Below, piece by piece: positions 17,086-47,024 of a DNA stretch of 64,000 bases. Location: assembly GCA_030604135.1 (NCBI GenBank), contig JAUVWL010000007.1:28279-92278 (forward strand), in the 5' to 3' direction. The stretch's first letter is position 1, and every line of letters starts with the position of its first letter. A program made the translations under genes and the position numbers. Source of the stretch: Burkholderiales bacterium (GTDB lineage Bacteria > Pseudomonadota > Gammaproteobacteria > Burkholderiales > Burkholderiaceae_C). A model generated the notes under the pieces. It was not told where the DNA came from. It did no database searches and worked only from the letters and a program-made list of their open reading frames with translations.

Positions 17086-17174
17086 CGGGGGCTCCGTGAA
17101 AAGGATCTGAATGTGTTTCGGTTGTCCATGGCGCCGGAGCGTCACCCGCAACGCGTGAAGCGGTCCCATCCAGG

Positions 17175-17254: not shown

Positions 17255-20200
17255 TCATTCCACTAGCACCAGCACGTCCTGGCCGGCGGCCACGGGCGCG
17301 CCTTCGCGGCACATGAGGCGGTGCACGGTGGCGTCCTGTGGCGAGAGCACGTTGAATTCCATCTTCATGGACTCGACCACCAGCAGCACGTCGCCGGCGG
17401 CCACGCGCTGGCCTTCGCTGACCAGCACCTTCCACACGCTGCCGGGCACGCTGCTGGCCAGCGGGCGGCCGCCGGGCGGCAGGTCCAGCTCGACGCTGGC
17501 GTCGGCCGCGGCCACGTCGGCGTCGCCCGCGTAGGCCAGTTGCCCGCTGGCGGCCCAGCGCTCGCGCTCGGCGTCGAAGGCGGCCTGCTGCTGCGCCTTG
17601 AAGGCGCCGATGCTGGCGGCGTTGTCGGCCAGGAAGCGGCGGTAGTCGCGCAGGCTGAAGGTCGTCTCTTCGACTTGCAGCGCGTAGCCGCCGTGCGGGA
17701 AGGCGGCGCGGATGCGCAGCAGCTCGTCCTGGTCCACCGGCACGAAGCGGATCTGGTCAAAGAAGCGCAGCAGCCAGGGCTGCTCGAACACCGAGCCCGG
17801 CTCGCCATGGCGCCAGCGGTTCCACATCTGCAGCGTGCGGCCGACGAACTGGTAGCCGCCGGGGCCTTCCATGCCGTAGACGCAGAGGTAGGCGCCGCCG
17901 ATGCCGACGGCGTTCTCGGGCGTCCAGGTGCGCGCAGGGTTGTACTTGGTGGTCACCAGGCGGTGGCGCGGGTCCACCGGCGTGGCCACCGGTGCGCCCA
18001 GGTACACGTCGCCCAGGCCGAGCACCAGGTAGCTGGCGTCGAAGACGACCTTGAACACGTCGTCGATGCTGCCCAGCCCGTTGATGCGGCGGATGAACTC
18101 GATGTTGCTCGGGCACCAGGGCGCGTCGGGCCGCACCGATTGCATGTACTTCTCGATGGCCAGTTTCGTCTGCGGGTCGTCCCAGGAGAGCGGCAGGTGC
18201 ACGATGCGGCTGGGCACCTGCATGTCGTCGACGGCGGGCAGCGCGGCTTCGGCTTCGACCAGCACCTTCAGCAGCGCGGCGCGCGAGACCTTGGCGGGGT
18301 CGAAGTGCAGCTGCAGAGAACGGATGCCCGGCGTCATGTCGACGATGCCGGGCAGGGTGCCCGCCTCGATGCGCGAACGCAGCGCCTGCATCAGCACGTG
18401 CACGCGCAGGCGCAGTTCGATGTCGAGCACCAGCGGGCCGAACTCGACCAGCAGGTAACGGTCGCCGGCCTGGCGCACCACCATGGCGGGCACGGCCTCG
18501 TCTTCGCGCGCCGGGTCGGCCAGGACAATGGGCGTGGGGTGGGCGGTGACGTCGTCGCTTGGCTTGGCGGCCAGTGGCTGGCTGAGCGAGATGAGCGCGG
18601 CGTCGAGCATCGCGCTGCGGTCCAGCGCCTGGTCCAGCGAGAGGCGGTGGAAGCGCACCGTGTCGCCGGGGCGCAGCTGGCCGAGCTTCCAGAGTTCGGC
18701 GTCGACCACCACGGCCGGGCAGACGAAGCCGCCGAGGCTGGGGCCGTCGGGGCCGAGGATGACCGGCATGTCGCCGGTGAAGTCGATGGCGCCAATGGCG
18801 TAGGCGTTGTCGTGGATGTTGGACGGGTGCAGGCCGGCCTCGCCACCGTCGGGGCGCGCCCACTGTGGCCGGGGACCGATCAGGCGCACGCCGGTGCGGC
18901 TGGAGTTGTAGTGCACCTCCCAGTCGGTGGCGAAGAAGGTGGCCACGTCATCGGGTGTGAAGAAGTCGGGCGCGCCGTGCGGGCCGTAGAGCACGCCCAC
19001 GTCCCAGTGGTGGTTGAAGGCGGGCACGGTGTCGGGGGATGCGCTCACGCCCGCCGTGCCGGCGCCGGGCGCGGCCAGGTGCAGCACGTCGCCGGTGCGC
19101 AGGTGGCGGCCGGCGTGGCCGCCGAACTGGCCGAGCGTGAAGGTGCTGCGGCTGCCCAGATACAGCGGCACGTCGAAGCCGCCGCCCACGGCCAGGCACA
19201 GGCGCGCGCCGCCCTCTGCACGGCCGATGGCGAGCACGCTGCCGGCGGCTACGCGGTGGCTCTGCCACATCTCCAGTGGCGCGCCGTCAAGTGTCACCTT
19301 CACCGGCGCGCCGGTCACGGCGATCACCGCGTCGGCGTTGAAGCGCAGCGTGGGGCCGGAGAGCGTGATCTCCAGCGCGGCCGCGTCGTCGGCGTTGCCC
19401 ACCAGGCGGTTGGCCATGCGGTGGGCGTAGGCGTCCATGGGGCCGCTGGGCGGCACGCCCACGTCCCAGTGACCGAGGCGCCCCGGCCAGTCCTGCACGC
19501 TGGTCTGCACGCCGGGCTCCACCACTTCGACGGTCGCGGGACGGAAGTGGAAGCTGTTGAGAAAGCGCGTGACCTGCCGGCCTGTGCGGAACACCGGGTC
19601 GCGCACCACCTGGCGCAGGTAGCCCAGGTTGGTTTCGATGCCGGCCAGGCGCGTGGCGGCCAGCGCGGCCTCGAGCTTGTGCAGCGCCTGCTCGCGGTCG
19701 GGCGCAGTGACGATGAGCTTGGCCAGCATGGGGTCGTACCAGGCGGGCACCTCGGTGCCGCGCTCGACCCAGCCGTCCACGCGAGCATCGCTTGGGAAAG
19801 CCACCTCGGTCAGCAGGCCGGCGCTGGGCTGGAAGTTTTTCGCCGGGTCTTCGGCGTACAGCCGCACCTGGATGGACGCACCCTGCGGGGTGGGTGCCAG
19901 CGTGGCCAACGGCGGCAGATCACCGGCGGCGAGTTGCACCATCCACGCGACCAGATCGACGCCAGTCACCTGCTCGGTCACGCCGTGTTCCACCTGCAGG
20001 CGGGTGTTGACTTCAAGGAAATAGAACTGGCCGGTGGCGGCGTCGTAGACGAATTCCACCGTGCCGGCCGAGCGGTAGTTGACCGCCTGCGCCAGACGCA
20101 CCGCGGTGGCGTGCAGTTCGCTGCGCTGCGCGTCGGTCAGGCCCGGCGCGGGCGTCTCTTCGATCACCTTCTGGTTGCGGCGTTGCACCGAGCAGTCGCG

Positions 20201-20875
20201 CTCGCCCAGCGCGAGCACCGTGCCCGCGCCGTCGCCGAAGACCTGCACCTCGATGTGGCGCGCCTGCTCGACGTACTTCTCCAGGAAGAGGCCGGCGTCT
20301 TTGAAGTTGGCGCTGGCCAGGCGCTGCACCGAGGCGAAGGCATCGCTGAGTTCGTCTTCGCTCCACACCAGGCGCATGCCGATGCCACCGCCGCCGGCCG
20401 TGCTCTTGAGCATGACCGGGTAGCCGATGCGCAGGGCCTCGGCGCGGGCCTGCGCGGCATCCTGCAGCAGACCGGTGCCGGGCAGCAGCGGCACGCCGCG
20501 CTGTTCGGCCAGGTCGCGTGCCGTGTGCTTGAGGCCGAAGGCGCGCATCTGATCGGGCGTGGGGCCGATGAAGGCGATGCCCGCGTCTTCGCAGGCCTGG
20601 GCAAAGCCCGGGTTTTCGGACAGGAAACCGTAGCCGGGGTGGATGGCCTGGGCGCCACAGTCTTTGGCAATCTGCAGGATGCGGTCGGCCCGGAGGTAAC
20701 TCTCGGCCGCGGGCGCGGGGCCGAGCAAATAGGCCTCGTCGGCCTCGCGCACGTGGCGGGCCTGCGCGTCGGCTTCGGAATATACGGCCACGCTCTGCAC
20801 GCCCAGCGCCTTGAGGGTGCGGATGATGCGGCAGGCGATGGCGCCTCGGTTGGCGATCAGGACCTTGCGGAACAT
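17255..20875 (-). CDS. uca: Guanidine carboxylase (annotated family: urea carboxylase), 1206 aa
   Basis: ATP- and biotin-dependent carboxylase. Biotin carboxylase domain residues 1-450 ([20 protein letters not shown]-grasp loop [22 protein letters not shown]); KipA/AHS2-like carboxyltransferase region about 470-760; KipI/AHS1 region about 840-1040; biotinyl domain at the C terminus with biotin lysine in VVESMKMEF. The architecture fits urea carboxylase, but the operon starts with a guanidine-I riboswitch and carries both DUF1989 genes. In that context the enzyme is known to carboxylate guanidine to carboxyguanidine. The substrate call is therefore contextual; residues separating the two specificities cannot be judged here without alignment. 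Confidence 0.88.
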
Positions 20876-20976
20876 GGGTTCTCCGGTGGCAGGCCGTCCT
20901 GCCGAGGCGATGACATCAGACGGGTCGTCCCGTCGTCAGATGGAAGAAACAGATGCGTGCACGGGCTGCTTCCAGC

Positions 20977-21055: not shown

Positions 21056-21733
21056 TCATGTCTGGTCCCAGACCAGCAGTTGAATGGGGGTGGGGTTGTA
21101 GGCGTTGCAGGGGTTGTTCAGCTGGGGGCAGTTGCTGATCAGCACCCACAGGTCCATCTCGGCGCGCATCTCCACGTACTTGCCCGGGCCGGACACGCCG
21201 TCGGCGAACTGGAGGTCGCCGCTGTCGGTGACCGGCACGTTCATGAAGAAGTTGATGTTGGGCACCAGGTCGCGCTTGGTCAGGCCGATGTCGGCGTGCT
21301 GCATGGCGACAAGGTAGTTGTCGCGGCAGTTGTGCATGAACTTCTTCTGCAGCGCGTAGCGCACGGTGTTGCTCTCGGCCGCGCAGGCGCCGCCCAGGGT
21401 GTCGTGGCGGCCGCAGGTGTCGGCCACGATGGTGAGCATGGGGCGGCCGTCGTTGCTGCGGATGACCGAGCCGGTGGTCAGGTAGATGCCGCCCTGGTGC
21501 ACCATGGTGTCGATGGCGCTGTAGTGCTCGGCCAGGTCGTCGCGGTTGTAGAACAGCACGTCGGCGGCCTGGTTGCCCTCCAGGTCCACGATGCGCAGGG
21601 TCTGGCCCTTGTTGACCGCGAACAGAATGGGCTCGCCCGGCGGGTGGCGCTGGTCTAGAACGGCCTGGGCCGGGTCGAGCGCACTCTCCTGGATGCGGAT
21701 GTCGGTGGCCTGGTTTTCGGTGGTGGCGTTCAT
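21056..21733 (-). CDS. DUF1989 protein, carboxyguanidine deiminase subunit (225 aa)
   Basis: One of the two urea-carboxylase-associated DUF1989 proteins. The paired proteins are now known as CgdA and CgdB, which together deiminate carboxyguanidine to allophanate; I cannot assign which letter this is. Seen: TLRIVDLEGNQAADVLFYN (about 49-67), DTCGRHDTLGGACAAESN with His and Cys residues typical of the metal site, and FMHNCRDNY and NFFMNVPV. ATG 21733 has GGAGA 6 bases upstream; a GTG at 21751 would overlap the upstream stop by 4 bases. Cytoplasmic. Confidence 0.85.
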   Translation of the reverse strand: MNATTENQATDIRIQESALDPAQAVLDQRHPPGEPILFAVNKGQTLRIVDLEGNQAADVLFYNRDDLAEHYSAIDTMVHQGGIYLTTGSVIRSNDGRPMLTIVADTCGRHDTLGGACAAESNTVRYALQKKFMHNCRDNYLVAMQHADIGLTKRDLVPNINFFMNVPVTDSGDLQFADGVSGPGKYVEMRAEMDLWVLISNCPQLNNPCNAYNPTPIQLLVWDQT

Positions 21734-21747
21734 GAAGGTCTCCGCGT

Positions 21748-22602
21748 TCACAGGTACAGAACATCCGAGTTGTGCAGGGCGCGCGCGTTCTCCGGGCGGA
21801 AGGCGCGGCAGGCGTCGTTGGCCGGTGCGGCTCCGCAGCGCCAGGCCAGCAGGCCCACCTTCTTCGGCGCGTAGACCGGGTTCGGGTCCAGCGCGTGCGG
21901 CGCGGTGCTGATGGCCAGGATTACGTCCATGTCGAAGCGCAGCTCGACGTGGTCGCCGGCCCTGGCGTGGTCGGGCACGAACTGGAAGCGCCCCTGCGCG
22001 TCCACGCTGACCTTTGAAAACAGGTTGACTGGCGCAATCAGGTCACGCCGGGTCAGGCCGTACTTGCCGATCTCGATCAGCAACCCGTCCTTGCCGGAGC
22101 GGTACATGCCGTTGCGCGCGTCTTCGTAGCGGCGCTCGCCGTACCTGGCCGCCATGCGCTCGTTGTCCAGCAGGGCGCCCAGCGGGTCGTGCCAGCCCAG
22201 GCTGTCGGCAGTGACGCTGGCCAGGCTGCGGCCCATGTCACTCATCAGCACATGGCCGGCCCGGTAGTGCACGGTGTGCTGGGCCTTGAGGCTGTCGGGC
22301 ATGTTGTAGCGCTCCAGCTTTTCCAGGGCCGAATAGAGCACCACGCTGACGTTGGGTCCGTCCTCCAGGGCCACGAAGCGGATGGCGCTGCCACGCGGCA
22401 TGCGCCAACTCCAGTGGCCACCGCCGGGCACGATCTCGCTCCACATGGCGCGCGCGGTGTCCACACCGGCCAGCGCCGCCTGCGGAAAACGCTGCCACAG
22501 CGCGGGCGCGTCCACCGGGGCGGCCTGCGGCGGGTTGGCGGGCACCGGCACCTGCGGCTCGGTCCAGGGGGTGCTGGAGGTGGTGGGGGTGGTGTCGCTC
22601 AT
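21748..22602 (-). CDS. DUF1989 protein, second carboxyguanidine deiminase subunit (284 aa)
   Basis: Partner of the downstream DUF1989 protein in the CgdAB complex, which links guanidine carboxylase to allophanate hydrolase. It has a Pro-rich N-terminal extension of about 35 residues, then WSWRMPRGSAIRFVALEDGP (about 63-82), SDMGRSLASVTADSLGWHDP and LIAPVNLFSKVSVDAQG. The HDPLG segment corresponds to the HDTLGG segment of the partner, consistent with the two being paralogues. It starts 34 bases after the ABC ATPase gene and ends 14 bases before the partner's ATG, so co-translation is likely. Confidence 0.85.
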   Translation of the reverse strand: MSDTTPTTSSTPWTEPQVPVPANPPQAAPVDAPALWQRFPQAALAGVDTARAMWSEIVPGGGHWSWRMPRGSAIRFVALEDGPNVSVVLYSALEKLERYNMPDSLKAQHTVHYRAGHVLMSDMGRSLASVTADSLGWHDPLGALLDNERMAARYGERRYEDARNGMYRSGKDGLLIEIGKYGLTRRDLIAPVNLFSKVSVDAQGRFQFVPDHARAGDHVELRFDMDVILAISTAPHALDPNPVYAPKKVGLLAWRCGAAPANDACRAFRPENARALHNSDVLYL

Positions 22603-22636: not shown

Positions 22637-23494
<858 letters not shown>

Positions 23495-23555
23495 GGCTGT
23501 TCAGCCTTTCATGTCAGAGGTCAGCACAGGTGCGACGAGGGCGGCTGCACCCTCC

Positions 23556-23657
23556 ACACGCACCGTGGAACCGGCTTTGCCGGGCCACAGGTGCGGTTCC
23601 CCCTCCAAGCCGAAGGCGCCAGAGAGGGGGGAAGACGCGAAGCGGCGCAGGGGGGTA
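23556..23657. repeat. Comamonadaceae-type intergenic element, copy C (long form)
   Basis: CACCGTGGAACCGGCTTTGC and GGGGAAGACGCGAAGCGGCG as in the other copies, with an extra segment CTCCAAGCCGAAGGCGCCAG near 23603-23622 that lengthens the middle. Lies between permease and ATPase genes. Confidence 0.85.
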
Positions 23658-23658
23658 T

Positions 23659-24519
23659 TCACTTGATATACAGCCAGGGGAAGGCGCGGCGGTGCGCCAG
23701 GCGGAACAGCTGGTCCGTCACCAGGCCAATGAGACCGATGACGATGATGCCGGCGAAGATGGTGTCGGTCTGCAGGAAGCGCTGTGCCCGCAGGATGGCG
23801 TAGCCCAGGCCCGAGTTGGCGGCCACCAGCTCGGCCACCACCAGGTAGGTCCAGGCCCAGCCCATGGTGATGCGCAGCGTGTCCAGCAGGGCCGGCTTGG
23901 CGCTGGGGAAGATGACCTTCTCGATCAGCTCACGCCGGTTGGCCCCCATGGTCTGCGCCGCCTCGACCTGCGCGGCCGGCACGCGGCGCACGTCTTCGGC
24001 CACCATCAGCACCATCTGGAAGAAGGTGCCAATGAAGATGATGGCGATCTTCGAGCCCTCGCCAATGCCGATCCACAGCATCACCAGCGGAATGAAGGCC
24101 ACCGCCGGCATGTAGCGGATGAAATCGGTCAGCGGTTCCAGCAGCGCCTGCACCGCCCGGTACGAGCCGATCAGCAGACCCAGCGGCAGCGCAATCACCG
24201 CCGACAGCAGAAAGCCCGCCACCACCCGGTAGACGCTGATGCCCATGTCGCCCATCAGCCCGGTCTCGGTGGCCCAGGTCCAGGTCCTGTCCAGCACCTG
24301 CAGCGGCGCCGGCAGAAAGGTCGCGTCCATGCCGCCCCAGGCGGCCAGCACGGTCCACAACAACAGCGGCGTGACCAGGCCGGTCAGGGCCAGCACCCAG
24401 TAGGCCCGGCGCGAAATGGGCGCACGCACCGTCCACAGGTTGGAACGTCGCCGCGGCACGGCCGGTGCGCGGGCCACCGGCACAATGGCCTGGGCGGCCG
24501 GAGGAAGGGTCTGGGACAT
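23659..24519 (-). CDS. ABC transporter permease, nitrate/taurine type (286 aa)
   Basis: Inner-membrane permease with the BPD_transp_1 fold. The first membrane segment follows RRAYWVLALTGLVTPLLLWT, and about five more are visible. The EAA cytoplasmic loop EAAQTMGANRRELIEKVIFP docks the ATPase. The ATG at 24519 (MSQTLPPAAQ) has AGGAG at 24525-24529 on the minus strand. First gene after riboswitch 1. I infer guanidine as the cargo from the riboswitch and downstream enzymes; the permease family itself covers nitrate, taurine, sulfonates and pyrimidines. Confidence 0.88.
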   Translation of the reverse strand: MSQTLPPAAQAIVPVARAPAVPRRRSNLWTVRAPISRRAYWVLALTGLVTPLLLWTVLAAWGGMDATFLPAPLQVLDRTWTWATETGLMGDMGISVYRVVAGFLLSAVIALPLGLLIGSYRAVQALLEPLTDFIRYMPAVAFIPLVMLWIGIGEGSKIAIIFIGTFFQMVLMVAEDVRRVPAAQVEAAQTMGANRRELIEKVIFPSAKPALLDTLRITMGWAWTYLVVAELVAANSGLGYAILRAQRFLQTDTIFAGIIVIGLIGLVTDQLFRLAHRRAFPWLYIK

Positions 24520-24534
24520 GCGGACTCCTGGACG

Positions 24535-24594
24535 GGGACAAAAGGCGGAGAGGCTCGTGCGCATGCAACGAAGCGTCTCCCGGGCTTTTGTCCC
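24535..24594 (-). promoter_or_regulatory. Expression platform of riboswitch 1
   Basis: The 3' conserved element of the aptamer (24594-24576, GGGACAAAAGCCCGGGAGA) is complementary to a segment just upstream of the ribosome site (24551-24535, TCTCCGCCTTTTGTCCC): GGGACAAAAG pairs perfectly with CTTTTGTCCC and GGAGA with TCTCC, loop about 24 bases. This helix cannot coexist with the aptamer fold. No U-tract follows, so it is not a standard intrinsic terminator. Confidence 0.65.
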
Positions 24595-24684
24595 TCCGTG
24601 GAGCCACGCGATGGTGGCCGACTGCTCTCGGACCAGACAGCGCCGCGCTCTGCATGAATGCAGAAGCAGCGCCCGGAACCCTAG
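24576..24684 (-). promoter_or_regulatory. Guanidine-I (ykkC) riboswitch 1
   Basis: The minus strand carries the invariant blocks of the ykkC/guanidine-I aptamer in order: CTAGGGTTCCGG at the 5' end (from 24684), CTGGTCCGAGAG in the middle and ACGGAGGGACAAAAGCCC with GGGAGA at the 3' end (to 24576). The variable P1a hairpin between the first two blocks is formed by CTGCATTCATGCAG. The class binds free guanidinium and turns expression on. It precedes the permease ATG by 56 bases. The call rests on exact match to the consensus I know; covariance scoring was not run. Confidence 0.95.
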
Positions 24685-24694
24685 CGGTCTTCAA

Positions 24695-24710
24695 GGCAAG
24701 CGGCGTGCAG
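24695..24710 (-). promoter_or_regulatory. Candidate sigma54 promoter before riboswitch 1
   Basis: Minus strand CTGCACG-CCGC-TTGCC has the exact spacing of the sigma54 consensus TGGCACG-N4-TTGCA, with the -12 GC intact but one G of the -24 GG changed. The predicted start would fall at the CTAGGG that opens the riboswitch. Nitrogen (NtrC) control would suit the pathway. Weak because of the -24 mismatch. Confidence 0.3.
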
Positions 24711-38267: not shown

Positions 38268-38900
38268 TCAGACCCCCAGGTAACGCCCCGGCCGGTGGTT
38301 GAGCGCCAGGATGACGCCGATGGCCATGGCGCCCACCACCGACTGCGCCACCTGCAGCGGCGGCAGCACCCAGACGGCGGCCAGCACCACCACCACGTCC
38401 ACCGACATCTGCACCTTGCCGGCGCTCAGGCCCCGGGCCTGCTGCAGCCACTGCGCCAGGATGTTGACGCCACCCACGCTGGCCTGGTGGCGCAGCAGCG
38501 CAAGCAGGCCAAAGCCGATGAGAAAGCCGCCCAGCACCGAGGCCACCCAGGGGTTGAGCAGCTCGAAGCGCACCACCTTGGGCGCCAGTGTGGTGCAGGC
38601 GGACACCAGCGCGACGGCGCCGAAGCTCTTGTAGGTGAAGACCGGGCCCAGCCGGTACCAGGACAGCACGAAGAACGGCAGGCTGAAGAGGAAGAAAAAC
38701 ACACCAAAGGGCAGGCCACTGGCGTAGCTGGCCAGAAAGGCAACACCCGCCACGCCACCGGTCAGCAGCCCGGCGTGGCCGAACATGATCATGCCCAGCG
38801 CAACAAACAGCGAGCCGGCGATCAGGGCGTGGGTGTCATCGAACCAGGTGTGGGCGGCGGGCCTGGGCGGGTTTGGGGCCAGGGGAGCGGTGGGGTCCAT
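38268..38900 (-). CDS. YitT-family membrane protein (210 aa)
   Basis: DUF161/YitT integral membrane protein with about five helices: LIAGSLFVALGMIMFGHAGL, TGGVAGVAFLASYASGLPFG, PFFVLSWYRLGPVFTYKSFG, then VASVLGGFLIGFGLLALLRH and the conserved SVGGVNILAQWLQ. Transport role unproven. The ATG at 38900 lies 35 bases after the MBL hydrolase gene on the same strand, so it may be the distal gene of the riboswitch-2 operon. The frame is open antisense far upstream; that part is not used. Confidence 0.8.
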   Translation of the reverse strand: MDPTAPLAPNPPRPAAHTWFDDTHALIAGSLFVALGMIMFGHAGLLTGGVAGVAFLASYASGLPFGVFFFLFSLPFFVLSWYRLGPVFTYKSFGAVALVSACTTLAPKVVRFELLNPWVASVLGGFLIGFGLLALLRHQASVGGVNILAQWLQQARGLSAGKVQMSVDVVVVLAAVWVLPPLQVAQSVVGAMAIGVILALNHRPGRYLGV

Positions 38901-38935
38901 TCGCAGGGACAAGCATGGAGCATGCCGCCTGGCCC

Positions 38936-39706
38936 TCAGCCCGCACCGTCCTGCGCGGCCAGGTAGGCCCGCACCAGCTCCCGCAGCCGTTCGCGCCCGA
39001 AGCTGGGGTCGTGCCCGGCGTGCACCACGCTGACCGGCAGGGCCAGCAGGCGTTCCATGGTGCGGGCGTAGGCCACGCGGTCGGAGTGGTGCAGGTGGTC
39101 GATCAGCGGCCCGTCGTAGATGGCGTCGCCCGAAAACAGGGTGCCGGTGCGGGCCTCCCACAGGCCGATGCTGCCGGGTGAATGGCCGGGCAGGTGCAGC
39201 ACCTCGAAGTGGCGGTTGCCCAGGTCGATGACGTCGCCGTCTTCCAGCTCGCGCGTGACGCTGGCCTGCCGGATTTCCCAGGCCGAGAGGTCGTAGTCGG
39301 GCGTGGGCAGGGCGGTGATGGCGGGGCCGCCGGTCTGGTAGCCGGGCACGTCGATGCTGACGTCGCGCAGGTCGAAGTCGGCCAGGGTGTGCGCCGGGTC
39401 GGCGCCACGCAGGCCGGGGGCTTCGAGGCGGTGGCACCAGCATTCGCCGAACTCGTGGTGGCTGCCGATGTGGTCCAGGTGCACATGGGTGGCCAGCGCC
39501 GCCACGCGCTGGCCGAACAGGTGGCGCGAGGCGGCGTGCAGGCTGCTGACGCCCAGACCGGTGTCGACCACCAGGTCCAGCCCACGCCCGCGGATGTGCC
39601 AGATGTTGCAGCGCAGGAAGGGGATGACGTGGGGCTCGGTGATGAGGGTGAGGCTGTCACCGAGGTGGCGGAACTCGAACCAGTCGCCGTCAAGGACCTG
39701 CATCAT
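38936..39706 (-). CDS. Metallo-beta-lactamase-fold hydrolase (256 aa)
   Basis: MBL fold with metal motif THVHLDHIGSHHEFG (HxHxDH about residues 74-79), second-shell LPGHSPGSIGLWE (His about 174), LFSGDAIYDGP (Asp about 193) and VHAGHDPSFGRERL. Glyoxalase-II/lactonase-like; the substrate may be a thioester, lactone or cyclic amide. No signal peptide, so cytoplasmic. It overlaps the upstream unknown gene by 4 bases (ATGA, 39703-39706), so it belongs to the putative guanidine-compound operon. Confidence 0.88.
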   Translation of the reverse strand: MMQVLDGDWFEFRHLGDSLTLITEPHVIPFLRCNIWHIRGRGLDLVVDTGLGVSSLHAASRHLFGQRVAALATHVHLDHIGSHHEFGECWCHRLEAPGLRGADPAHTLADFDLRDVSIDVPGYQTGGPAITALPTPDYDLSAWEIRQASVTRELEDGDVIDLGNRHFEVLHLPGHSPGSIGLWEARTGTLFSGDAIYDGPLIDHLHHSDRVAYARTMERLLALPVSVVHAGHDPSFGRERLRELVRAYLAAQDGAG

Positions 39707-40410
39707 GGCGTCACGGGCTGGCCGGCGGTCGCCCAGGCGGGCGCCTCGCCGAACACCACCTCGAAGTCGAGCAAGGCTGCGGCCTGGTCGGGGTGGCGCT
39801 GCACCAGTTCGGCCAGGGTTTCGTCGGGCCGCAGGTCGGCCGGCCAGGGTGCGGTGCGCGGGCGCAGGGTGATGGCGTGGCGGCCGGCGATGAACAGGCG
39901 CTGGTCGCGGGGCTGGTCGGGCTGGTTGGACTGGCCGTGGGCCCTGACCGACTCCAGGGCCAGCAGCGGCCCGGTGGAGCCGGGCAGGCGTTCCCAGACC
40001 TCCAGGTACTGGCCGTGCACGCCGGTTTCAATGACGCGCTCGGGCGTCTCGAAGACCATGAAGCCGGCGTCGGGCGTGCTGCGCGGGGGCTGGATGTCCC
40101 ACAGGCGGTGCCAGGTGCAGACATCGGGCTGGCCGGCCTGGCCGGGCGTGATGCGGGTGTGCCCGCAAAAGCCCTGCAACTGCGCACGGCCGGCGGGGTT
40201 GGCGGGGTCCACACCGGCGGGCACGCGCAGGTCGGCGTGCCACAGCGCGGTCTGCAGCCAGTGCACGCGGGTGGTGGTGTCGCGGCCTTCGGGGGTCTCC
40301 AGCAGGGTGCGCACCCACACGCCACGGTAGGCCGCAGGCACGGCGCCGGCGGAGGCGGGTTCGGGCAGCGGGCGCCAGCCAGCGGGCAAGGTCGGGTGGT
40401 GCGGGTTCAT
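39703..40410 (-). CDS. Unrecognised protein, 235 aa, in the riboswitch-2 operon
   Basis: I do not recognise the family. Soluble; no membrane segment or signal peptide. Visible features: Trp-rich N-terminal half (GVWVRTLLETPEGRDTTTRVH, split; WLQTALWHADLRVP), VCTWHRLWDIQPPR, FMVFETPERVIETGVHGQYL and LEVWERLP, a layout like a lipocalin or heme-binding beta-barrel. That likeness is only impression. It starts 21 bases after the cysteine hydrolase gene and overlaps the MBL gene by 4 bases, so it is tightly embedded in the operon. Confidence 0.7.
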   Translation of the reverse strand: MNPHHPTLPAGWRPLPEPASAGAVPAAYRGVWVRTLLETPEGRDTTTRVHWLQTALWHADLRVPAGVDPANPAGRAQLQGFCGHTRITPGQAGQPDVCTWHRLWDIQPPRSTPDAGFMVFETPERVIETGVHGQYLEVWERLPGSTGPLLALESVRAHGQSNQPDQPRDQRLFIAGRHAITLRPRTAPWPADLRPDETLAELVQRHPDQAAALLDFEVVFGEAPAWATAGQPVTP

Positions 40411-40431
40411 GCGAGAGCGGGTGTGCGGGCT

Positions 40432-41115
40432 TCAGGAATGGGAGGTGACGGGGGTGACGGGTGTGAGTGTGGTCAGTGCGGCCACGGCCTCGTCGGTGCT
40501 GCAGACCTGGCCGAAGATGCCGCCCTCCACACCGATCATGGCCAGGGCCGGCGCCTGCAGCTCGGGCTGGCTGGCGGCGGTGGCGTCACCGACGGTGGTG
40601 CAGACAAACCCGCGGTCCACCGCTTCGCGCAGGGTGGAGTGCACACAGACCTCGGTGGTGACGCCGCAGACAATGAGCCGGCGGGTGCCGTGGCGTGCCA
40701 GCAGGCTGTCCAGCCGCGTCTGGTGAAAGGCGCCGTAGCCGGGCTTGTCGATCACCTCTTCACCGGGCATGGGGCGCAGCGCGTCGACGAAGTCGTGCCC
40801 CTGCTCGCCACGCACCAGCAGGCGACCGAGCGGGCCGGTGCTGCCAATGGGCGCACCCGCGGCCACGCTGCGCGCCAGCTTGGCGGGCGGACAGTCCGAC
40901 AGGTCAGGCAGGTGCCCTTCCCGCGTGTGCACCACTGGCAGGCCGGCGGCGCGCGCGGCCTTGAGCAGGCGCTGCACCTGGCCCACCACCGCCTGCATGC
41001 GCGAGATGTCGATGCCCGCTTGGTGCGCGTAGCCACCGGGGCTGCAGAAGTCGCGCTGCATGTCGATGACGACCAGCGCGGTGGTGTTGACATCCAGGCC
41101 GGGCACGGTGCTCAT
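40432..41115 (-). CDS. Isochorismatase-like cysteine hydrolase, biuret/guanylurea-hydrolase-like (227 aa)
   Basis: Catalytic triad by position: Asp18 (VVIDMQRDF), Lys124 (VIDKPGYGAF) and Cys157 (GVTTEVCVHSTLREA). The spacing (106, 33) equals that of biuret hydrolase as I recall its triad (D36-K142-C175). The loop MIGVEGGIFG carries Glu197 where biuret hydrolase, from memory, has a substrate-binding Gln; a Glu could hold a cationic guanidinium group. Guanylurea hydrolase and N-carbamoylsarcosine amidohydrolase belong to the same superfamily. ATG 41115 overlaps the creatininase stop (ATGA), so the two work in one pathway. Exact substrate unproven. Confidence 0.82.
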   Translation of the reverse strand: MSTVPGLDVNTTALVVIDMQRDFCSPGGYAHQAGIDISRMQAVVGQVQRLLKAARAAGLPVVHTREGHLPDLSDCPPAKLARSVAAGAPIGSTGPLGRLLVRGEQGHDFVDALRPMPGEEVIDKPGYGAFHQTRLDSLLARHGTRRLIVCGVTTEVCVHSTLREAVDRGFVCTTVGDATAASQPELQAPALAMIGVEGGIFGQVCSTDEAVAALTTLTPVTPVTSHS

Positions 41116-41915
41116 GGGGAGGGCCGGGTGAAGCCGGTGGTGATGGCGTCGGCCATGCGGCGCGCCACCTCGTCGGCCAGCAGGCGGCCCTTGGTGGCGT
41201 CCGAACCCTTGGCCGACGACAGCACGCCCGAGGGCGGCACCCAGTCGGTGCGGCTGGGGTACATGTCGTAGGGGGGGAAGTCGGCCGGGCCGTCGTCCGG
41301 CAGCAGGTCCATGCGCACCAGCGAGGGGTGGTGGTGCAGCATCATGGACGTCTCCAGCACGGCCGCGTGCTCCAGCGCGAAGCCGGGAAAGCCGTCGGGG
41401 AACACATGACCGAGGGTCTCGGGCGTCATGAAGTCCCAGTACTCCAGCCGCATGACCTGCAGCGCACAGGCCGGGTCGGCGGCCTTCGCGTCGCGCAGGC
41501 CCAGGTCGATGCCTTCGATCAGGAACCACTGGTTTTCGTAGTGGCCGTTGACGACGACGAGCTTGTCCACGCCGTGGCGGGCGAACTCGCGCACCGCGTC
41601 GCGCACCTGGCCGATCAGGGTGGCCGCATCGACGCTGGTGGTGCCGCAGAAGTGCTGGCCGCCACCGCACTTGGGCTGTGACTTGTAGCCGTAGCTCAGC
41701 GTGGGCGCGACCAGGCCACCCACGCGCGCGGCGGTGTCGGCGGCCACGGCGCTGGCCAGCAGGCCGTCGGTGCCCAGGGGCAGGTGCGGGCCGTGTTGCT
41801 CCAGCGCGCCCACCGGCAGCAGCACCGGCGGGTGTTCGGTGACGATGCGTTGCTGGTAGTCGACCCAGGAGAGCTGGTTCATCCAGACGGTGGGGGTGTC
41901 GGTTCGGGCGGTCAT
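41112..41915 (-). CDS. Creatininase-family amidohydrolase (267 aa)
   Basis: Close in pattern to creatinine amidohydrolase, which opens creatinine to creatine. Metal ligands by position: Glu39, His41, Asp50 (VGALEQHGPHLPLGTD), His125 and Glu127 (VNGHYENQWF). All sit at +5 relative to the Pseudomonas creatininase numbering I remember (34, 36, 45, 120, 122). His183 matches His178. The lid Trp174 position appears to be Phe179, so the ring substrate may differ. Length fits the family. The neighbouring cysteine hydrolase and guanidine riboswitch point to a creatinine- or guanidine-ring substrate. It starts 12 bases after the EamA gene. Confidence 0.85.
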   Translation of the reverse strand: MTARTDTPTVWMNQLSWVDYQQRIVTEHPPVLLPVGALEQHGPHLPLGTDGLLASAVAADTAARVGGLVAPTLSYGYKSQPKCGGGQHFCGTTSVDAATLIGQVRDAVREFARHGVDKLVVVNGHYENQWFLIEGIDLGLRDAKAADPACALQVMRLEYWDFMTPETLGHVFPDGFPGFALEHAAVLETSMMLHHHPSLVRMDLLPDDGPADFPPYDMYPSRTDWVPPSGVLSSAKGSDATKGRLLADEVARRMADAITTGFTRPSP

Positions 41916-41927
41916 GTGATGCTCCGG

Positions 41928-42839
41928 TCAGGTGGGCGCGGGTTGGGGCCTGGAGGAGGTCGAGCGCCCGCTGTCGAGCGCTTCCACCAGGGCGGCGATG
42001 GCAATCAGCGCCCCGCCGGCCCAGCCCATGGGGGTGAGGCTTTCGCTGCCGAACCAGACGGCGGTGAGCACGGCCACCACCAGCTCGGCCAGCAATATCA
42101 CGCCGGCCCGGCTGCTCTCCAGGTGGGTGACGCCAAATTGCCAGGTGGCGGTGGCCAGCAGCAGCCAGCCAAAGCCATAGGCCAGGATGCCCAGCCACAC
42201 CACGGTGCCCATGGGCGGCACGCCGTGCCCCAGCGCGCCGGTGGCGGCCAGCGAGATCAGCCCGCAGCCGGCAAACACGGCCAGTGTCTTGGTGCGCATG
42301 GGCACCGCCTGGGCGGCGCGCGCCAGGATGTTGTTGGCAGCAAACGCGAAGCCGGCCGACAGCGCCAGAAAATCCACCAGGGTGAGCGAGAAGCCGGTGG
42401 CCCCCGGTCCGCCCAGCACCATCCACAGACCGACGATGGCGGCCACCACCGCGGCCCAGCGCAGCGGCGGAATCTGCTCTTTCAGAAACAGCCAGCCGCC
42501 CAGCACCGACCACACCGGCGACAGGTAGAACAGGAACATCACCCGCACCACGTCGCCCATCATGAGGGCGTTGACGAACGAGGTGTTGGCCCAGCCCCCC
42601 ACCAGGGCCAGCGCCAGCACAAAGCCCCACTGCGCGCGCCATGCGCTGCGGTCGCGCCAGATGAAGGGCAACGCGCACAGGCCCACCAGCCCGTAGGACA
42701 GCAGCGAGACCACCGGGCCGCTCAGACCCTGGCCGATGAACCATTTGAGCGGTATCCACGATAGGCCCCACAGGCTGGCCGAGAACAGCAGCACGGCGGT
42801 GGCGACACGGTCGGAAGGGCGCGAGGGCAGGAAGGTCAT
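41928..42839 (-). CDS. EamA/DMT-family transporter (303 aa)
   Basis: About ten membrane helices in two EamA repeats: LLFSASLWGLSWIPLKWFIG opens the first, and LALSAGFAFAANNILARAAQ and GILAYGFGWLLLATATWQFG lie in the second. The DMT superfamily includes the small guanidinium exporters, although those are half-size; this one could import or export a guanidino compound. ATG 42839 overlaps the SDR stop by 4 bases. The frame extends open antisense upstream but is not used. Confidence 0.85.
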   Translation of the reverse strand: MTFLPSRPSDRVATAVLLFSASLWGLSWIPLKWFIGQGLSGPVVSLLSYGLVGLCALPFIWRDRSAWRAQWGFVLALALVGGWANTSFVNALMMGDVVRVMFLFYLSPVWSVLGGWLFLKEQIPPLRWAAVVAAIVGLWMVLGGPGATGFSLTLVDFLALSAGFAFAANNILARAAQAVPMRTKTLAVFAGCGLISLAATGALGHGVPPMGTVVWLGILAYGFGWLLLATATWQFGVTHLESSRAGVILLAELVVAVLTAVWFGSESLTPMGWAGGALIAIAALVEALDSGRSTSSRPQPAPT

Positions 42840-43597
42840 GGCATGACAGAGCCGCCGTTGGGGCCGAGCACCTGGCCGCAATAGAAGCGCGAGAGGTCGG
42901 AGCACAGGAACAGCACGCTGGCGGCGATTTCGGCCGGGTCGGCCAGTCGGTGTTGCGGGGTGGCGAGCTCCTTTTCCACCCACTCGGCGCTCATGTGTTC
43001 CAGCGACACCATGGCCGTGGCCACCGGGCCGGGGGCGATGGCGTTGACGCGGATCTGGTGCGGCGCGAACTCGCGCGCCAGCGAGCGGGTGAGCCCGATC
43101 ACGCCGGCCTTGGCGGCGCAATACGGCGCGTAGCGTTCGCGGCCCAGAATGCCCAGGTCAGACGCGATGTTGACCACCACCCCGCCGCCGCGCACCACCA
43201 TGCCCGGCAGCACGGCACGGCACATCAGGAACACGGACTTGAGGTCGGTGCCGAGCAGGCGGTCCCAGTCGGCCTCGGTGGTGTCCAGAAAGGCCTTCTC
43301 CTGGATGATGCCGGCGTTGTTGACCAGGATGTCGATGCCGCCAGTGACGGCCAGGGTCTGGTCCACCAGGCGCTGCACCTCGGCCGCCTGGCTCACGTCG
43401 GCCCCGATGGCAACGGCCTGCCCGCCAGCGGCCAAGATGCCGTCCACCAGCGCCTGCGCCGCTTCGGCCTGGTGCAGGTGGTTGACCACCACCCGGGCGC
43501 CCGCCTGCGCCAGCAACTGCGCGGTGGCGTGGCCGATGCCGGTGGCGGCGCCGGTGACCAGGGCGGTCCTGCCCTGCAGTGTGATGAGGTCGGTCAT
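42836..43597 (-). CDS. Short-chain dehydrogenase B of the riboswitch-2 operon (253 aa)
   Basis: Classical SDR: TGAATGIGHATAQLLAQAG (TGxxxGIG), NNAGIIQEKAFLDTT, catalytic Ser in NIASDLGILGRE and YCAAKAG. ATG 43597 (MTDLITLQGR), overlapping the upstream SDR stop (ATGA). Highly compact with EamA downstream (ATGA). Two SDRs in tandem suggest two successive oxidations (alcohol, then aldehyde or hemiaminal) after the oxygenase step; that order is inference. Confidence 0.87.
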   Translation of the reverse strand: MTDLITLQGRTALVTGAATGIGHATAQLLAQAGARVVVNHLHQAEAAQALVDGILAAGGQAVAIGADVSQAAEVQRLVDQTLAVTGGIDILVNNAGIIQEKAFLDTTEADWDRLLGTDLKSVFLMCRAVLPGMVVRGGGVVVNIASDLGILGRERYAPYCAAKAGVIGLTRSLAREFAPHQIRVNAIAPGPVATAMVSLEHMSAEWVEKELATPQHRLADPAEIAASVLFLCSDLSRFYCGQVLGPNGGSVMP

Positions 43598-44382
43598 GCC
43601 ATCACCTCGCCGTGGCTGGCCACCAGGCACTGGCCGGTCAGGGGCAAGGCGCCGTCGCTGGCCAGAAACAGGAACACGCCGGCCAGCTCATCGGGCGTGA
43701 GCATCTGCGCCATCGCCTGGCGCGACAGGATCTCGCGCTCTTCCTCGGCCTCGCTGCGGCCACTGGCGCGCGCCATGGCGCTGAGCGATCGCAGGGCCGC
43801 CTCGGTGCGCACCCAGCCGGGGCACACCGCATTGACGCGGATGCCGCGCGGGCCCAGCTCCAGCGCCCACGAACGCGTGAGGCCGACCACCGCATGTTTG
43901 CTGGCGCTGTAGGCCGAGAACCCCGCCACACCAATGCGGCCCCAGATGGAGCTCTGGTTGATGACACTGCCGCCGCTGGCCATGAGCGGCAGCAGCGCCT
44001 GCGTGAGCCGCACCATGCTGGTGACGTTGTTGTCGAGCAGGGCGACCCAGCGCAGCATGGCGTCGGGCGCCTGGCTGTCGATGGGTGTGGGGTATTCGAC
44101 GCCCGCATTGTTCACCAGCACATCCAGCCGGCCCCAGCGCTGGCCCACCTGCGCGGCCACGGCCGCCACCTGAGCGTTGCTGCCCAGGTCACACACGGCG
44201 CTGTGCACCTGGCTGTTGTGCAGCGAGGTGACCAGGGCATCCAGCGCCTCGGGCTGGCGGTCGAGCAGCAGCAGCTGCGCGCCCTGCGCCAGAAAGGCCC
44301 GTGCCAGTGCCTGGCCGATGCCGCCGGCAGCACCGGTGATCAATACGGTCTTGCCTTGCAGGCCATAGCTTTGCGTGGGCAT
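43594..44382 (-). CDS. Short-chain dehydrogenase A of the riboswitch-2 operon (262 aa)
   Basis: Classical SDR: TGAAGGIGQALARAFLAQGA, acidic LLDRQPE after beta-2 (NAD-type), NNAGVEYPTPIDSQ, Ser in NQSSIWGRIG and YSASKHAVVGL. PGWVRTEAALRS is the substrate loop. Complete. It begins 120 bases after the desaturase gene, a gap occupied by repeat copy D, and overlaps SDR B by 4 bases. Confidence 0.87.
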   Translation of the reverse strand: MPTQSYGLQGKTVLITGAAGGIGQALARAFLAQGAQLLLLDRQPEALDALVTSLHNSQVHSAVCDLGSNAQVAAVAAQVGQRWGRLDVLVNNAGVEYPTPIDSQAPDAMLRWVALLDNNVTSMVRLTQALLPLMASGGSVINQSSIWGRIGVAGFSAYSASKHAVVGLTRSWALELGPRGIRVNAVCPGWVRTEAALRSLSAMARASGRSEAEEEREILSRQAMAQMLTPDELAGVFLFLASDGALPLTGQCLVASHGEVMA

Positions 44383-44403
44383 TTCAGCCCTCCAGCGCGT
44401 GAG

Positions 44404-44493
44404 GGGCAGCCAGCCGGGAACACCGCCGGGCCGGCTTTGCCGGACGGCAGGTGTTGCCCCCTGGGGGGTAGCGCCGCAGGCGCTGCGGGGGGA
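44404..44493. repeat. Comamonadaceae-type intergenic element, copy D (divergent form)
   Basis: CCGGGCCGGCTTTGCCGGAC, then GTTGCCCCCTGGGGGGTAGC and GCCGCAGGCGCTGCGGGGGG. Same order of blocks as copies A-C with a changed right half. Lies between the desaturase and SDR A genes. Confidence 0.75.
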
Positions 44494-44502
44494 TCGTCAT
44501 AT

Positions 44503-45513
44503 CTATACGGCGGTCAGAAAAGACACACCCACGGCCCCGATGAAGCCGTCCGCACGGCGCGGAGTGCCCGGTGGCAGCACCTGCCCATAGTCGCTGGCGA
44601 GCACCCGGGTCACGCGGTGGCGGTGGTAGGCGCGCAGCAGCTCGCCCACCGTGACCACCTGGGCATTGCCCTCGGGGTAGAGCTCGCGGTGCAGGCGGGG
44701 CAGCTGGTACCAGGGCGCCACCGGGCGCTCGTGGTGGGCGTTGTGGAAGCCGAAGTTGAGCCAGATCAGGTTCAGCCACTTCGCGTCCACACTGACCACG
44801 TCGCTGTAGGTGTTGGCCTGTTCGTAGGCGCGGTCGCGCAGCTTGTCCTGCGGAATCGGCGCCTCGTCGAGGATGGGGTAGGCGTCGTAGGTGTGCTGGA
44901 AGCAGTCGGCAAATCGCAGCAGGTGCACGAACAGCAGGTAGGCCAGCGCGTACAGGGCCAGGGCCTTGAGCGACCACCAGGCCAGCAGCGCCCAGGCCGT
45001 CAGGCGCACCATGGCCACACCGATCACGCGGCCGCGCGCTTCCTTCTTGCGCTCGCCCATGAAGGGCATCGCCAGCACGAAGCCGCGCATGACGAACTCG
45101 ACCGCCGGGATGTGCAGCCACTCCAGCGCCAGCACCACGCGCCGCACCAGCGGGCGCGCGCGCAGGAAGCCCTGCAGGTCGAAGGTGATGACGTCGGCGC
45201 GCTCGATGTGGTGGCGCATGTGCTTGCGCCGCAGGTCGGCGAAGCTGGCATAGCAGCTGCCGTTGATCCAGCTCATGAGCTTGCCCCAGCGCTCGTTGGC
45301 CTCGGGCGTGCGAAAGATGGCGTGGTGCGCGAACTCGTGGATGAAGTAGGCCGACCAGGTGAGCGTGAGCGTCACCAGCAGCACACCGGCCAGGTTCAGC
45401 GCCCAGTGGGCCTGGCCGAGCAGGGCGATGCCCAGCGGCCAGCCGAGCACGGTGACGGTCAGGGCCAGGGTGTTGGGCCACACACCATCGGCGTGGCGGA
45501 AAACCGGTTTCAT
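44503..45513 (-). CDS. Membrane di-iron fatty-acid-desaturase-family oxygenase (336 aa)
   Basis: Three histidine boxes: HEFAHH (59-64), HMRHH (98-102) and HNAHH (257-261), which bind two irons. About four membrane segments (for example TLALTVTVLGWPLGIALLG near the N terminus). The family covers desaturases and hydroxylases such as AlkB-like enzymes; the FAD Pfam call does not fix the substrate. It lies 79 bases downstream of a binding protein under a guanidine-I riboswitch, so I infer C-H hydroxylation or N-dealkylation of a guanidino compound. An ordinary lipid desaturase remains possible. ATG 45513; the upstream open frame overlaps the binding-protein gene. Confidence 0.85.
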   Translation of the reverse strand: MKPVFRHADGVWPNTLALTVTVLGWPLGIALLGQAHWALNLAGVLLVTLTLTWSAYFIHEFAHHAIFRTPEANERWGKLMSWINGSCYASFADLRRKHMRHHIERADVITFDLQGFLRARPLVRRVVLALEWLHIPAVEFVMRGFVLAMPFMGERKKEARGRVIGVAMVRLTAWALLAWWSLKALALYALAYLLFVHLLRFADCFQHTYDAYPILDEAPIPQDKLRDRAYEQANTYSDVVSVDAKWLNLIWLNFGFHNAHHERPVAPWYQLPRLHRELYPEGNAQVVTVGELLRAYHRHRVTRVLASDYGQVLPPGTPRRADGFIGAVGVSFLTAV

Positions 45514-45548
45514 GTCGGGTTCCTTGATGGGCGACGCGCGGCCGGCCC

Positions 45549-45572
45549 GCACCCGGCCCACCGGGCGGGTGC
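45549..45572 (-). promoter_or_regulatory. GC-rich stem-loop between binding-protein and oxygenase genes
   Basis: On the minus strand GCACCCG (45572-45566), 10-base loop, CGGGTGC (45555-45549). No T-run follows, so more likely an mRNA-stabilising or attenuating hairpin that favours the binding-protein message than a terminator. Confidence 0.4.
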
Positions 45573-45592
45573 AGGTGGCGGCCACCAGGGGT

Positions 45593-46627
45593 TTACTTGA
45601 CCAGGGCCTTGACCAGACCGGCGTCGAAGGTCGCCTCGGTTGCCGGGATCTTGCTGATCTGGCCCTTGGCCTTGAGCAGCTCGGCGATGATTTCGCCGCT
45701 GGCGTAATACGAGGTGGTTTCCTTGGCCTTGACGAAGGCCTTGGGCATCTCGGCCAGCGGGATGTTGTAGACACCGCTGAGCTGCTCCTTGACCTCGGCG
45801 GCGGACACACCCATGAACTTGCCGATGATCTTCGCGGCGTCGTCCGGCTTGTCCTTCATGTAGGCCATGCCGTCGAGGTAGGCCCTCATGATGCCGGTGA
45901 TCTGCGCCGGCTTGGCCTTGATGACCTTGTCGTCGAACACCAGCACGTCGGCGATCAGGCCCGGCGCGTCCTTCGACGAGAACACCACCTTGAACTTGTT
46001 GCCACCGCCCTGGCCCAGGATCTGCGACAGGCTGGGCTCGTAGGTCACGCCAATGGGCAGCTGGCCGGAGGCCATGGCCGCGGGCACGGCTTCGGGGGTC
46101 ATGCTGACGGGACTGATGTCCTTCTCGCCCATGCCATTGATCTTCAGCGCATAGGACAGCAGGAAGTCGCTGGGCGAGAGCGGGTTGTAGCCCACCTTCT
46201 TGCCCTTGAAGTCCTTGACCGACTTGACCGATGCGTCGGCCACGATGGCGTCACCGCCATTGGAGTAGTCGATGGGCATGACCACCTTCATGCTGCGGCC
46301 GGCCGCCACCTGGCCGACCACCTGGTCGTAGGTGAGCATGCCGCCGTCGACCGCACCCGAGGCGATGGCCGAAGGAATCAGGGCCGGGTCGTTGAAGACC
46401 TGCAGCGAGACCTTCAGGTTGTACTTCTTGTAGAGATCGAGCGCGTCGGCCACGTAGAAGGGTCCATAGCCGATCCAGACCACGGTGGCCAGCTTCATGG
46501 ACGCCGGGGTCTGCGCCATCACGCCGGCGGTGGCCAGCGACAGGGCCAGGCCCAGGGCCGGCTTGAGGAACAGGTGGCGCCGCGAGGAAGAACCCAGGCT
46601 GCTGGCGGTGAGGGCGGTGTTTTTCAT
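45593..46627 (-). CDS. ABC substrate-binding protein, SsuA/NMT1-like, under guanidine riboswitch (344 aa)
   Basis: Periplasmic binding protein of the nitrate/sulfonate/taurine type. The N terminus has SSRRHLFLKPALGLALSLAT ending at GVMAQ, a signal peptide with a twin-arginine-like element. Mature part: VVWIGYGPFYVADALDLYKK, FNDPALIPSAIASGAVDGGM, GKKVGYNPLSPSDFLLSYAL, GVTYEPSLSQIL. ATG 46627 (MKNTALTASS). No permease or ATPase gene is adjacent; the matching pair lies 21 kb away at 22637-24519 under the other guanidine riboswitch, so I infer one split guanidine importer. Confidence 0.88.
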   Translation of the reverse strand: MKNTALTASSLGSSSRRHLFLKPALGLALSLATAGVMAQTPASMKLATVVWIGYGPFYVADALDLYKKYNLKVSLQVFNDPALIPSAIASGAVDGGMLTYDQVVGQVAAGRSMKVVMPIDYSNGGDAIVADASVKSVKDFKGKKVGYNPLSPSDFLLSYALKINGMGEKDISPVSMTPEAVPAAMASGQLPIGVTYEPSLSQILGQGGGNKFKVVFSSKDAPGLIADVLVFDDKVIKAKPAQITGIMRAYLDGMAYMKDKPDDAAKIIGKFMGVSAAEVKEQLSGVYNIPLAEMPKAFVKAKETTSYYASGEIIAELLKAKGQISKIPATEATFDAGLVKALVK

Positions 46628-46679
46628 CAGAGGACTCCAAGGGTTGGTGGGACGTGCAGAAGAACCGATCGGTGATCGT

Positions 46680-46768
46680 TCTCCCGGGCTTTTGTCCCTC
46701 CGTGGAGCCTGCGATGAGGCCGGCACACTCTCGGACCAGACATCACGAAACCGTGACCGGAACCCTAG
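46680..46768 (-). promoter_or_regulatory. Guanidine-I (ykkC) riboswitch 2
   Basis: Minus strand blocks in order: CTAGGGTTCCGG (from 46768), CTGGTCCGAGAG, then ACGGAGGGACAAAAGCCC and GGGAGA (to 46680). Each matches riboswitch 1 exactly, while the intervening hairpins differ, as expected for two true copies of the class. An imperfect hairpin AGAACGATC / GATCGGTTCT (46682-46661) overlaps the last three aptamer bases and may be its expression platform. The binding-protein ATG is 52 bases downstream. The other 256 bases of the divergent gap (46769-47024) hold no gene. Confidence 0.95.
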
Positions 46769-47024
46769 TGCACCTGTGCGGTCGAGGAAGTGTGCTTGCG
46801 CTCACAAATCGCTCTTCTTGCGAGAACAGAGTCAGCATGAAGCGTGCCAACCCGCAGAACCCGCCAGGATGACCCGCCAGGCCCCAGGTTGCACCAATGA
46901 GCGGCATGCACGGCCCCCGGACGCCCGCCGCGGGGCCGACCGCGGCTGAATTTGGTGCATAGCGTCCCGGTAATATCGGTGCTGGCCGACGGCTGGATCG
47001 GTCCCCGACACCAGGAGCTGCACC

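Follow-up and report, generated by a model that had tools for sequence, protein, structure and literature searches.

The question raised by the locus considered here is what compound is handled by a row of genes standing behind a guanidine riboswitch in a Burkholderiales bacterium (contig JAUVWL010000007.1; "the window" denotes the whole stretch of 64,000 nucleotides analysed, and coordinates are given within it). A first-pass annotation had read the row as an undescribed pathway for a substituted guanidine, in which an oxygenase and two short-chain dehydrogenases (SDRs) would remove an alkyl group and two amidohydrolases would release guanidine for another operon nearby. The row proves to be real, conserved and linked to guanidine, and it probably turns methylguanidine into guanidine, thereby feeding an operon that contains the genes gca and atzF in the same window. 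Its features are as follows.

46679..46779, minus strand: Guanidine-I aptamer heading the operon (Rfam RF00442, 82.9 bits, gathering score 63, E 2.8e-13)
45593..46627, minus strand: SBP, NMT1-like binding protein (PF09084, 87.6 bits; 64/64 loci of the upstream set defined below)
44503..45513, minus strand: FAD, membrane di-iron oxygenase, FA_desaturase/AlkB-like (PF00487)
43594..44382, minus strand: SDRa, short-chain dehydrogenase (PF13561; 58/64 loci)
42836..43597, minus strand: SDRb, short-chain dehydrogenase, a core gene (PF13561; 64/64 loci)
41928..42839, minus strand: EamA-family transporter (PF00892, 75.8 bits; 58/64 loci)
41112..41915, minus strand: CRN, amidohydrolase of the creatininase family whose substrate pocket is altered (TIGR04448, 355.3 bits)
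40432..41115, minus strand: ICH, isochorismatase-fold cysteine hydrolase, biuret-hydrolase-like (PF00857; NF050097 below cut-off)
39703..40410, minus strand: HYP, MgdL homologue and predicted N-(hydroxymethyl)guanidine lyase (similarity to P0254; D60, R62; beta-barrel model)
38936..39706, minus strand: MBL, GloB-like metallo-hydrolase (PF00753, Lactamase_B; TIGR03413 44 bits, under cut-off)
38268..38900, minus strand: YitT membrane protein, probably a neighbour rather than a member (PF02588)

The aptamer, which belongs to RF00442 by both sequence and structure, is the predicted riboswitch for the row; the first-pass annotation had placed it at 46680-46768, and the gene identities proposed there are also those given by Pfam and NCBIfam (NMT1-like, FA_desaturase, two SDRs, EamA, creatininase, isochorismatase, Lactamase_B and YitT). 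All ten genes from SBP through YitT are open, with no internal stops. The order following the aptamer is SBP-FAD-SDRa-SDRb-EamA-CRN-ICH-HYP-MBL, with spacings of 79 nt (SBP-FAD), 120 nt (FAD-SDRa), -4 nt (both SDRa-SDRb and SDRb-EamA), 12 nt (EamA-CRN), -4 nt (CRN-ICH), 21 nt (ICH-HYP), -4 nt (HYP-MBL) and 35 nt (MBL-YitT), which reproduce exactly the ATGA overlaps or 12-21 nt gaps that had been described from SDRa to MBL. A stem at 46678-46666, starting at the 3' end of the aptamer, is terminator-like but weak (the scan gave four sites against 2.9 expected). The inclusion of YitT in the operon, as originally suggested, was rejected, since its position is not conserved and it occurs near the operon in few relatives; it adjoins MBL in L011 but lies at least 1.5 kb off in L003, L006 and L014. 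Between FAD and SDRa (44383-44502) there is a G+C-rich palindromic stretch resembling a dispersed repeat.

Conservation was assessed using CRN alone as the query against a collection of species genomes, which yielded 223 stretches with a relative, the best 80 of these (L001-L080) being used; gene presence was scored with trimmed family profiles, upstream counts being taken over the 64 loci that have 5.2 kb or more upstream and downstream counts over the 65 that have 4.2 kb or more downstream. It must be borne in mind that these loci were chosen by CRN similarity and come mostly from Burkholderiales and Pseudomonas, so that they are not independent trials. CRN was found in all 80; upstream, SBP, FAD and SDRb are each present throughout and SDRa and EamA each in all but six, while downstream HYP is found in 63/65 loci and ICH in 60/65. 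A Guanidine-I motif lies no more than 450 nt upstream of SBP in 59/64 loci, and the order aptamer-SBP-FAD-SDRb is kept over many genera. The motif was not seen before SBP in L025 (which has a partial one), L034, L037, L061 and L062. The downstream MBL is AiiA-like in 39/65 loci (L030, for example, has an AiiA/4-pyridoxolactonase-like protein in place of the GloB-like one), of the window's GloB-like type in 11 and of neither type in 15. The smallest version, that of L062 (Tepidimonas sediminis), comprises gca, atzF, SBP, FAD, SDRb and CRN, and genome G984 is alike. The loci nearest to the window are from Hydrogenophaga, and its own genome (G000) amounts to 3.98 Mb. In a sample of 200 genomes from the same family, 16 (own genome included) gave a Guanidine-I match, a figure from which the filters lose weak matches; as gene order is kept across loci found by CRN alone, the row is more than a chance assembly.

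The evidence bearing most directly on the substrate comes from HYP. The N-(hydroxymethyl)guanidine lyase MgdL of Vreelandella boliviensis was published in 2025 (PMC12508155), where it is reported to be narrow for N-(hydroxymethyl)guanidine and inactive on hydroxylated dimethyl species. HYP is identical to the V. boliviensis protein taken as MgdL, P0254, in 57 of 180 columns (32%, E 1e-19), profile searches also link the two, and the catalytic residues Asp49 and Arg51 of MgdL align with D60 and R62 of HYP, both of them invariant in 47/47 aligned sequences. A widened HYP motif (W-x-Q, allowing residues other than L or I) is present in 72/72 sequences from L001-L080. The HYP model is predicted to be a beta-barrel (pLDDT 90), as is expected of MgdL; a second look using VIA-align gave 3rby, while no sequence match for the HYP family was found in the PDB at E up to 1, and neither the HYP nor the FAD model gave a Foldseek match at E 0.001 or better. 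HYP is likely to be a relative of MgdL, and is predicted to be an N-(hydroxymethyl)guanidine lyase; because it is an MgdL homologue, the likely substrate of the row is methylguanidine, so that the earlier proposal of oxidative dealkylation of a substituted guanidine is both supported and sharpened. In a Halomonas operon with the published layout, the MgdL family stands beside a 2-oxoglutarate (2OG) dioxygenase, MgdH. Another Halomonas stretch, L116 (G365:C1:4002000-4021900), holds a second dioxygenase and MgdL-like pair beside ABC transporter genes, with no gca in the stretch.

FAD belongs to the FA_desaturase superfamily (PF00487, 117.8 bits, cut-off 29.7) and not to the 2OG/Fe(II) dioxygenases of MgdH type, the MgdH candidate in L115 being a PF14226/PF03171 protein. 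Ten of its histidines (H59, H63, H98, H101, H102, H207, H257, H260, H261 and H275) are invariant in 21 aligned sequences, a set that includes the window protein and one protein entered twice. A match of FAD to any solved structure by sequence was rejected, as the PDB gave only an unrelated weak hit (E 0.03); a second look at the FAD model with VIA-align gave two chloroplast complex subunits and AlkB, suggesting an AlkB-like fold. Distant FAD relatives lie directly behind Guanidine-II aptamers in 6 of the 18 cases scanned, this being an aptamer class for which acceptance of methylguanidine has been demonstrated in Vreelandella (PMC12508155), and 15 of 30 FAD loci have a guanidine context on a strict count, plus four with Rfam aptamer matches. 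Elsewhere, FAD genes lacking SBP carry a guanidine aptamer of their own, and in distant loci such as L098 and L102 FAD stands behind a guanidine aptamer with no CRN or SDRb nearby. The FAD family is linked to guanidine aptamers and guanidine-use genes, and the window's FAD is most likely a methylguanidine hydroxylase in MgdH's place, as predicted from sequence; the oxygenase would then most likely be of a new kind for methylguanidine demethylation, and the lyase of a known kind.

In the scheme that is proposed, the genes from SBP to HYP would be co-transcribed from the aptamer, and SBP would take up the substrate by way of the permease and ATPase that the nearby guanidine operon encodes. FAD would hydroxylate methylguanidine to N-(hydroxymethyl)guanidine, from which HYP, as an MgdL-type lyase, would free guanidine, to be used by Gca, CgdAB and AtzF as a nitrogen source. 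There may also be a second exit, of which we are less sure, in which SDRb would oxidise the hydroxymethyl compound to N-formylguanidine and CRN would hydrolyse this to guanidine and formate; such a step would fit CRN since the creatininase family also includes a formamide hydrolase, ArfB (the match between CRN and ArfB is weak).

Some indication of alternative exits can be had from the same 30 FAD loci. Five of these contain an MgdL homologue and 21 a TIM-barrel protein (PF01261), none containing both; one has SDRb and CRN only, and three (L101, L103, L171) have no exit module nearby. The genome of L101 has an MgdL homologue on another contig, in that of L171 the TIM-barrel protein lies next to the other copy of FAD (L170), and G415, with a TIM-barrel protein far from its operon and an MgdL homologue as well, demonstrates that the two can share a genome. 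Whole-genome searches found neither an MgdL homologue (nine genomes searched) nor the TIM-barrel protein (eleven searched) in G984 and G263. Given this pattern, the hydroxymethyl compound may alternatively be handled by SDRb with CRN, although the pattern follows clades and is no proof; the TIM-barrel protein is a possible further N-(hydroxymethyl)guanidine enzyme. Next to distant FAD genes it takes the place of the MgdL homologue in L099 (11800-12639), L102, L160-L168 and others. One may tentatively entertain a formaldehyde-free demethylation, in which FAD, SDRb and CRN would yield guanidine and formate and MgdL would serve as an exit in parallel, G984 and G263 having this branch alone and the TIM-barrel protein providing a third exit in many gammaproteobacteria.

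There are a number of points that weigh against methylguanidine as the substrate. HYP is only about one third identical to P0254, and P0254 is equated with MgdL from its species, residue numbering and operon layout, not from an accession. G984 and G263 carry FAD, SDRb and CRN without a HYP homologue, while G084 has a HYP homologue with neither FAD nor MgdH. In nine of the 30 FAD loci the guanidine link consists solely of a related binding-protein gene, and in L101 and L103 there is no such link at all. An electron donor for FAD is not among the operon genes, and five further enzymes of the row would be superfluous for a two-step demethylation. Finally, the V. boliviensis Guanidine-I aptamer bound guanidine and not methylguanidine (PMC12508155), implying that induction by methylguanidine would need some guanidine first.

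A rival reading starts from CRN, which exceeds the cut-off of the creatininase equivalog TIGR04448 (235 bits) and is 47% identical to Pseudomonas putida creatininase (1j2t) over 255 aligned positions. In 92/92 loci (some genomes being represented twice) it keeps Glu34, His36, Asp45, His120 and Glu122, the creatininase metal ligands, together with Trp154 and His178. The substrate could on this basis be creatinine or an oxidised creatinine, which FAD would hydroxylate, an SDR would oxidise at the alcohol and CRN and ICH would hydrolyse as an acylguanidine, HYP and FAD then processing a methylguanidine intermediate. Such a route would employ SDRa, SDRb, CRN and ICH, but it is unlikely: of the residues of the creatininase substrate pocket, Ser78 is replaced by Cys in 91/92 loci, Trp174 by Phe or Tyr in 92/92 and Asp175 by Ala in 92/92, which makes plain creatinine hydrolysis by CRN doubtful despite the intact metal site, and distant loci such as L098 and L102 have FAD behind a guanidine aptamer with neither CRN nor SDRb close by. 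The textbook creatinine route was rejected as first choice because these pocket residues differ in the whole group examined. Creatinine is, all the same, the only natural methylguanidine source that PMC12508155 names. As regards ICH, its closest solved chain is a biuret hydrolase (6xjm), yet among the biuret and guanylurea hydrolases of the isochorismatase superfamily it falls under the cut-off for biuret amidohydrolase (NF050097, 249 bits against 370), so that, with CRN changed at three pocket positions, the earlier assignment of the guanidine-releasing steps to these two amidohydrolases is unproven. Separately, a second creatininase-family gene (CRN2) accompanies FAD or guanidine genes, with a type III glutamine synthetase in its vicinity, in L099 (13763-15944), L102, L112, L160-L163, L165, L166, L169 and L171, with Ser or Thr at the position of creatininase Glu122 in 11/11.

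A longer N-alkylguanidine, hydroxylated by FAD at the carbon beside the guanidine nitrogen and then relieved of its aldehyde or acid by lyase, SDR and amidohydrolases, would suit the two SDRs, the two amidohydrolases, the lactonase-like MBL of many relatives (all of which could serve for chains longer than one carbon) and the predicted AlkB-like fold of FAD; it is nonetheless quite improbable, given the narrow specificity reported for MgdL (PMC12508155) and the retention of its catalytic Asp and Arg in HYP. Most improbable is an ordinary creatinine-use operon in which only the binding-protein gene is under the riboswitch and the downstream genes are controlled separately. The gaps of 79 and 120 nt around FAD would make an internal promoter or terminator possible, and CRN does carry the database label "creatininase", but the aptamer-SBP-FAD-SDRb order in 59/64 loci, the separate aptamers of FAD genes lacking SBP and the failure of an admittedly weak scan to find a promoter-like site in the operon region all speak against it. 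Methylguanidine remains the preferred substrate.

The first-pass annotation also held that the guanidine produced would feed another operon, and this is supported by the following features.

24575..24695, minus strand: Guanidine-I aptamer leading the guanidine carboxylase operon (Rfam, 82.7 bits)
23659-24564, minus strand: ABC permease (NCBIfam)
22637-23494, minus strand: ABC ATPase (NCBIfam)
21748-22602, minus strand: cgd-type gene, urea amidolyase-associated protein (TIGR03425, 324.8 bits)
about 21065-21619, minus strand: second, related cgd-type frame (136 bits to a CGDA profile built in this analysis)
20889..20936, minus strand: Guanidine-II aptamer before gca (Rfam RF01068, 36.2 bits)
17255-20875, minus strand: gca-type carboxylase (TIGR02712, 1896.6 bits)
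15244-17169, minus strand: allophanate hydrolase atzF (TIGR02713, 788.2 bits)

Together these genes make up a standard operon for guanidine carboxylase, in which gca is preceded by Guanidine-II; it lies 22 kb from the FAD-HYP row. All three guanidine aptamers of the window (two Guanidine-I, one Guanidine-II) are on the minus strand, and no Guanidine-I copy beyond the two of the window was found in G000. The guanidine operon has no binding protein of its own, SBP being the sole binding-protein match in the window. Of the 16 family genomes with Guanidine-I, seven show the FAD operon (own genome included); in five of these (G000, G107, G956, G913, G899) the guanidine operon begins with permease and ATPase and no binding-protein gene is shown, while in G873 and G984 a binding protein is included. 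In the nine with no FAD in the aptamer stretches (the only parts searched for it), the binding protein is present in seven; no transporter is seen in G992 and no such operon in G923. Since the binding protein is missing mostly where the FAD operon is present, SBP is likely to work with the permease and ATPase encoded in the other operon, and a guanidine ABC importer is apparently split over two riboswitch operons (permease and ATPase at 22637-24564, binding protein at 45593-46627), a division that the proposed pathway, if true, would also suggest.

Compared with the MgdH/MgdL operon of V. boliviensis (PMC12508155), there is in common a Guanidine-I leader, a link to gca, cgd and atzF, and an oxygenase paired with an MgdL-family protein having the Asp and Arg; the differences are that the oxygenase here is a membrane protein of the FA_desaturase superfamily and there a 2OG/Fe(II) dioxygenase, and that the operon here is a separate one, which also carries two SDRs, a creatininase homologue, a cysteine hydrolase, an MBL and an EamA transporter. 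The gca/cgdAB/atzF operons, of which the window has one, have Guanidine-I and -II aptamers and an ABC transporter and break down free guanidine, whereas the present operon would produce it. Relative to P. putida creatininase, CRN differs in the pocket but not the metal ligands throughout the riboswitch-linked group. As for the AlkB alkane monooxygenase (8sbb, 8f6t), FAD has no PDB sequence relative at E 0.1 besides the one unrelated weak match, and rubredoxin is absent among the ten genes. In the literature searched, creatininase was not found together with guanidine and riboswitch (the gene lists of two key earlier studies fall outside that search), fatty acid desaturase was co-mentioned with these terms only in work unrelated by title, and formylguanidine was not mentioned; PMC7736828 gave no hits for desaturase, creatin, isochorismatase, amidohydrolase, oxidoreductase or dehydrogenase. 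The description "undescribed" consequently fails for the second step, given MgdL, but holds, within that literature, for the gene set with this oxygenase.

If the proposed pathway is true, methylguanidine use would be spread over many betaproteobacteria and Pseudomonas, beyond halophiles; next to one and the same lyase, a membrane di-iron oxygenase would have taken the place of a soluble 2OG dioxygenase; the labels fatty acid desaturase, creatininase and hypothetical protein would be wrong for several genes; and SDRb with CRN, and the TIM-barrel protein, would be candidates for other endings of the reaction. Just beyond the guanidine operon, at 12899-14425, there is a type I restriction-modification HsdM gene (TIGR00497).

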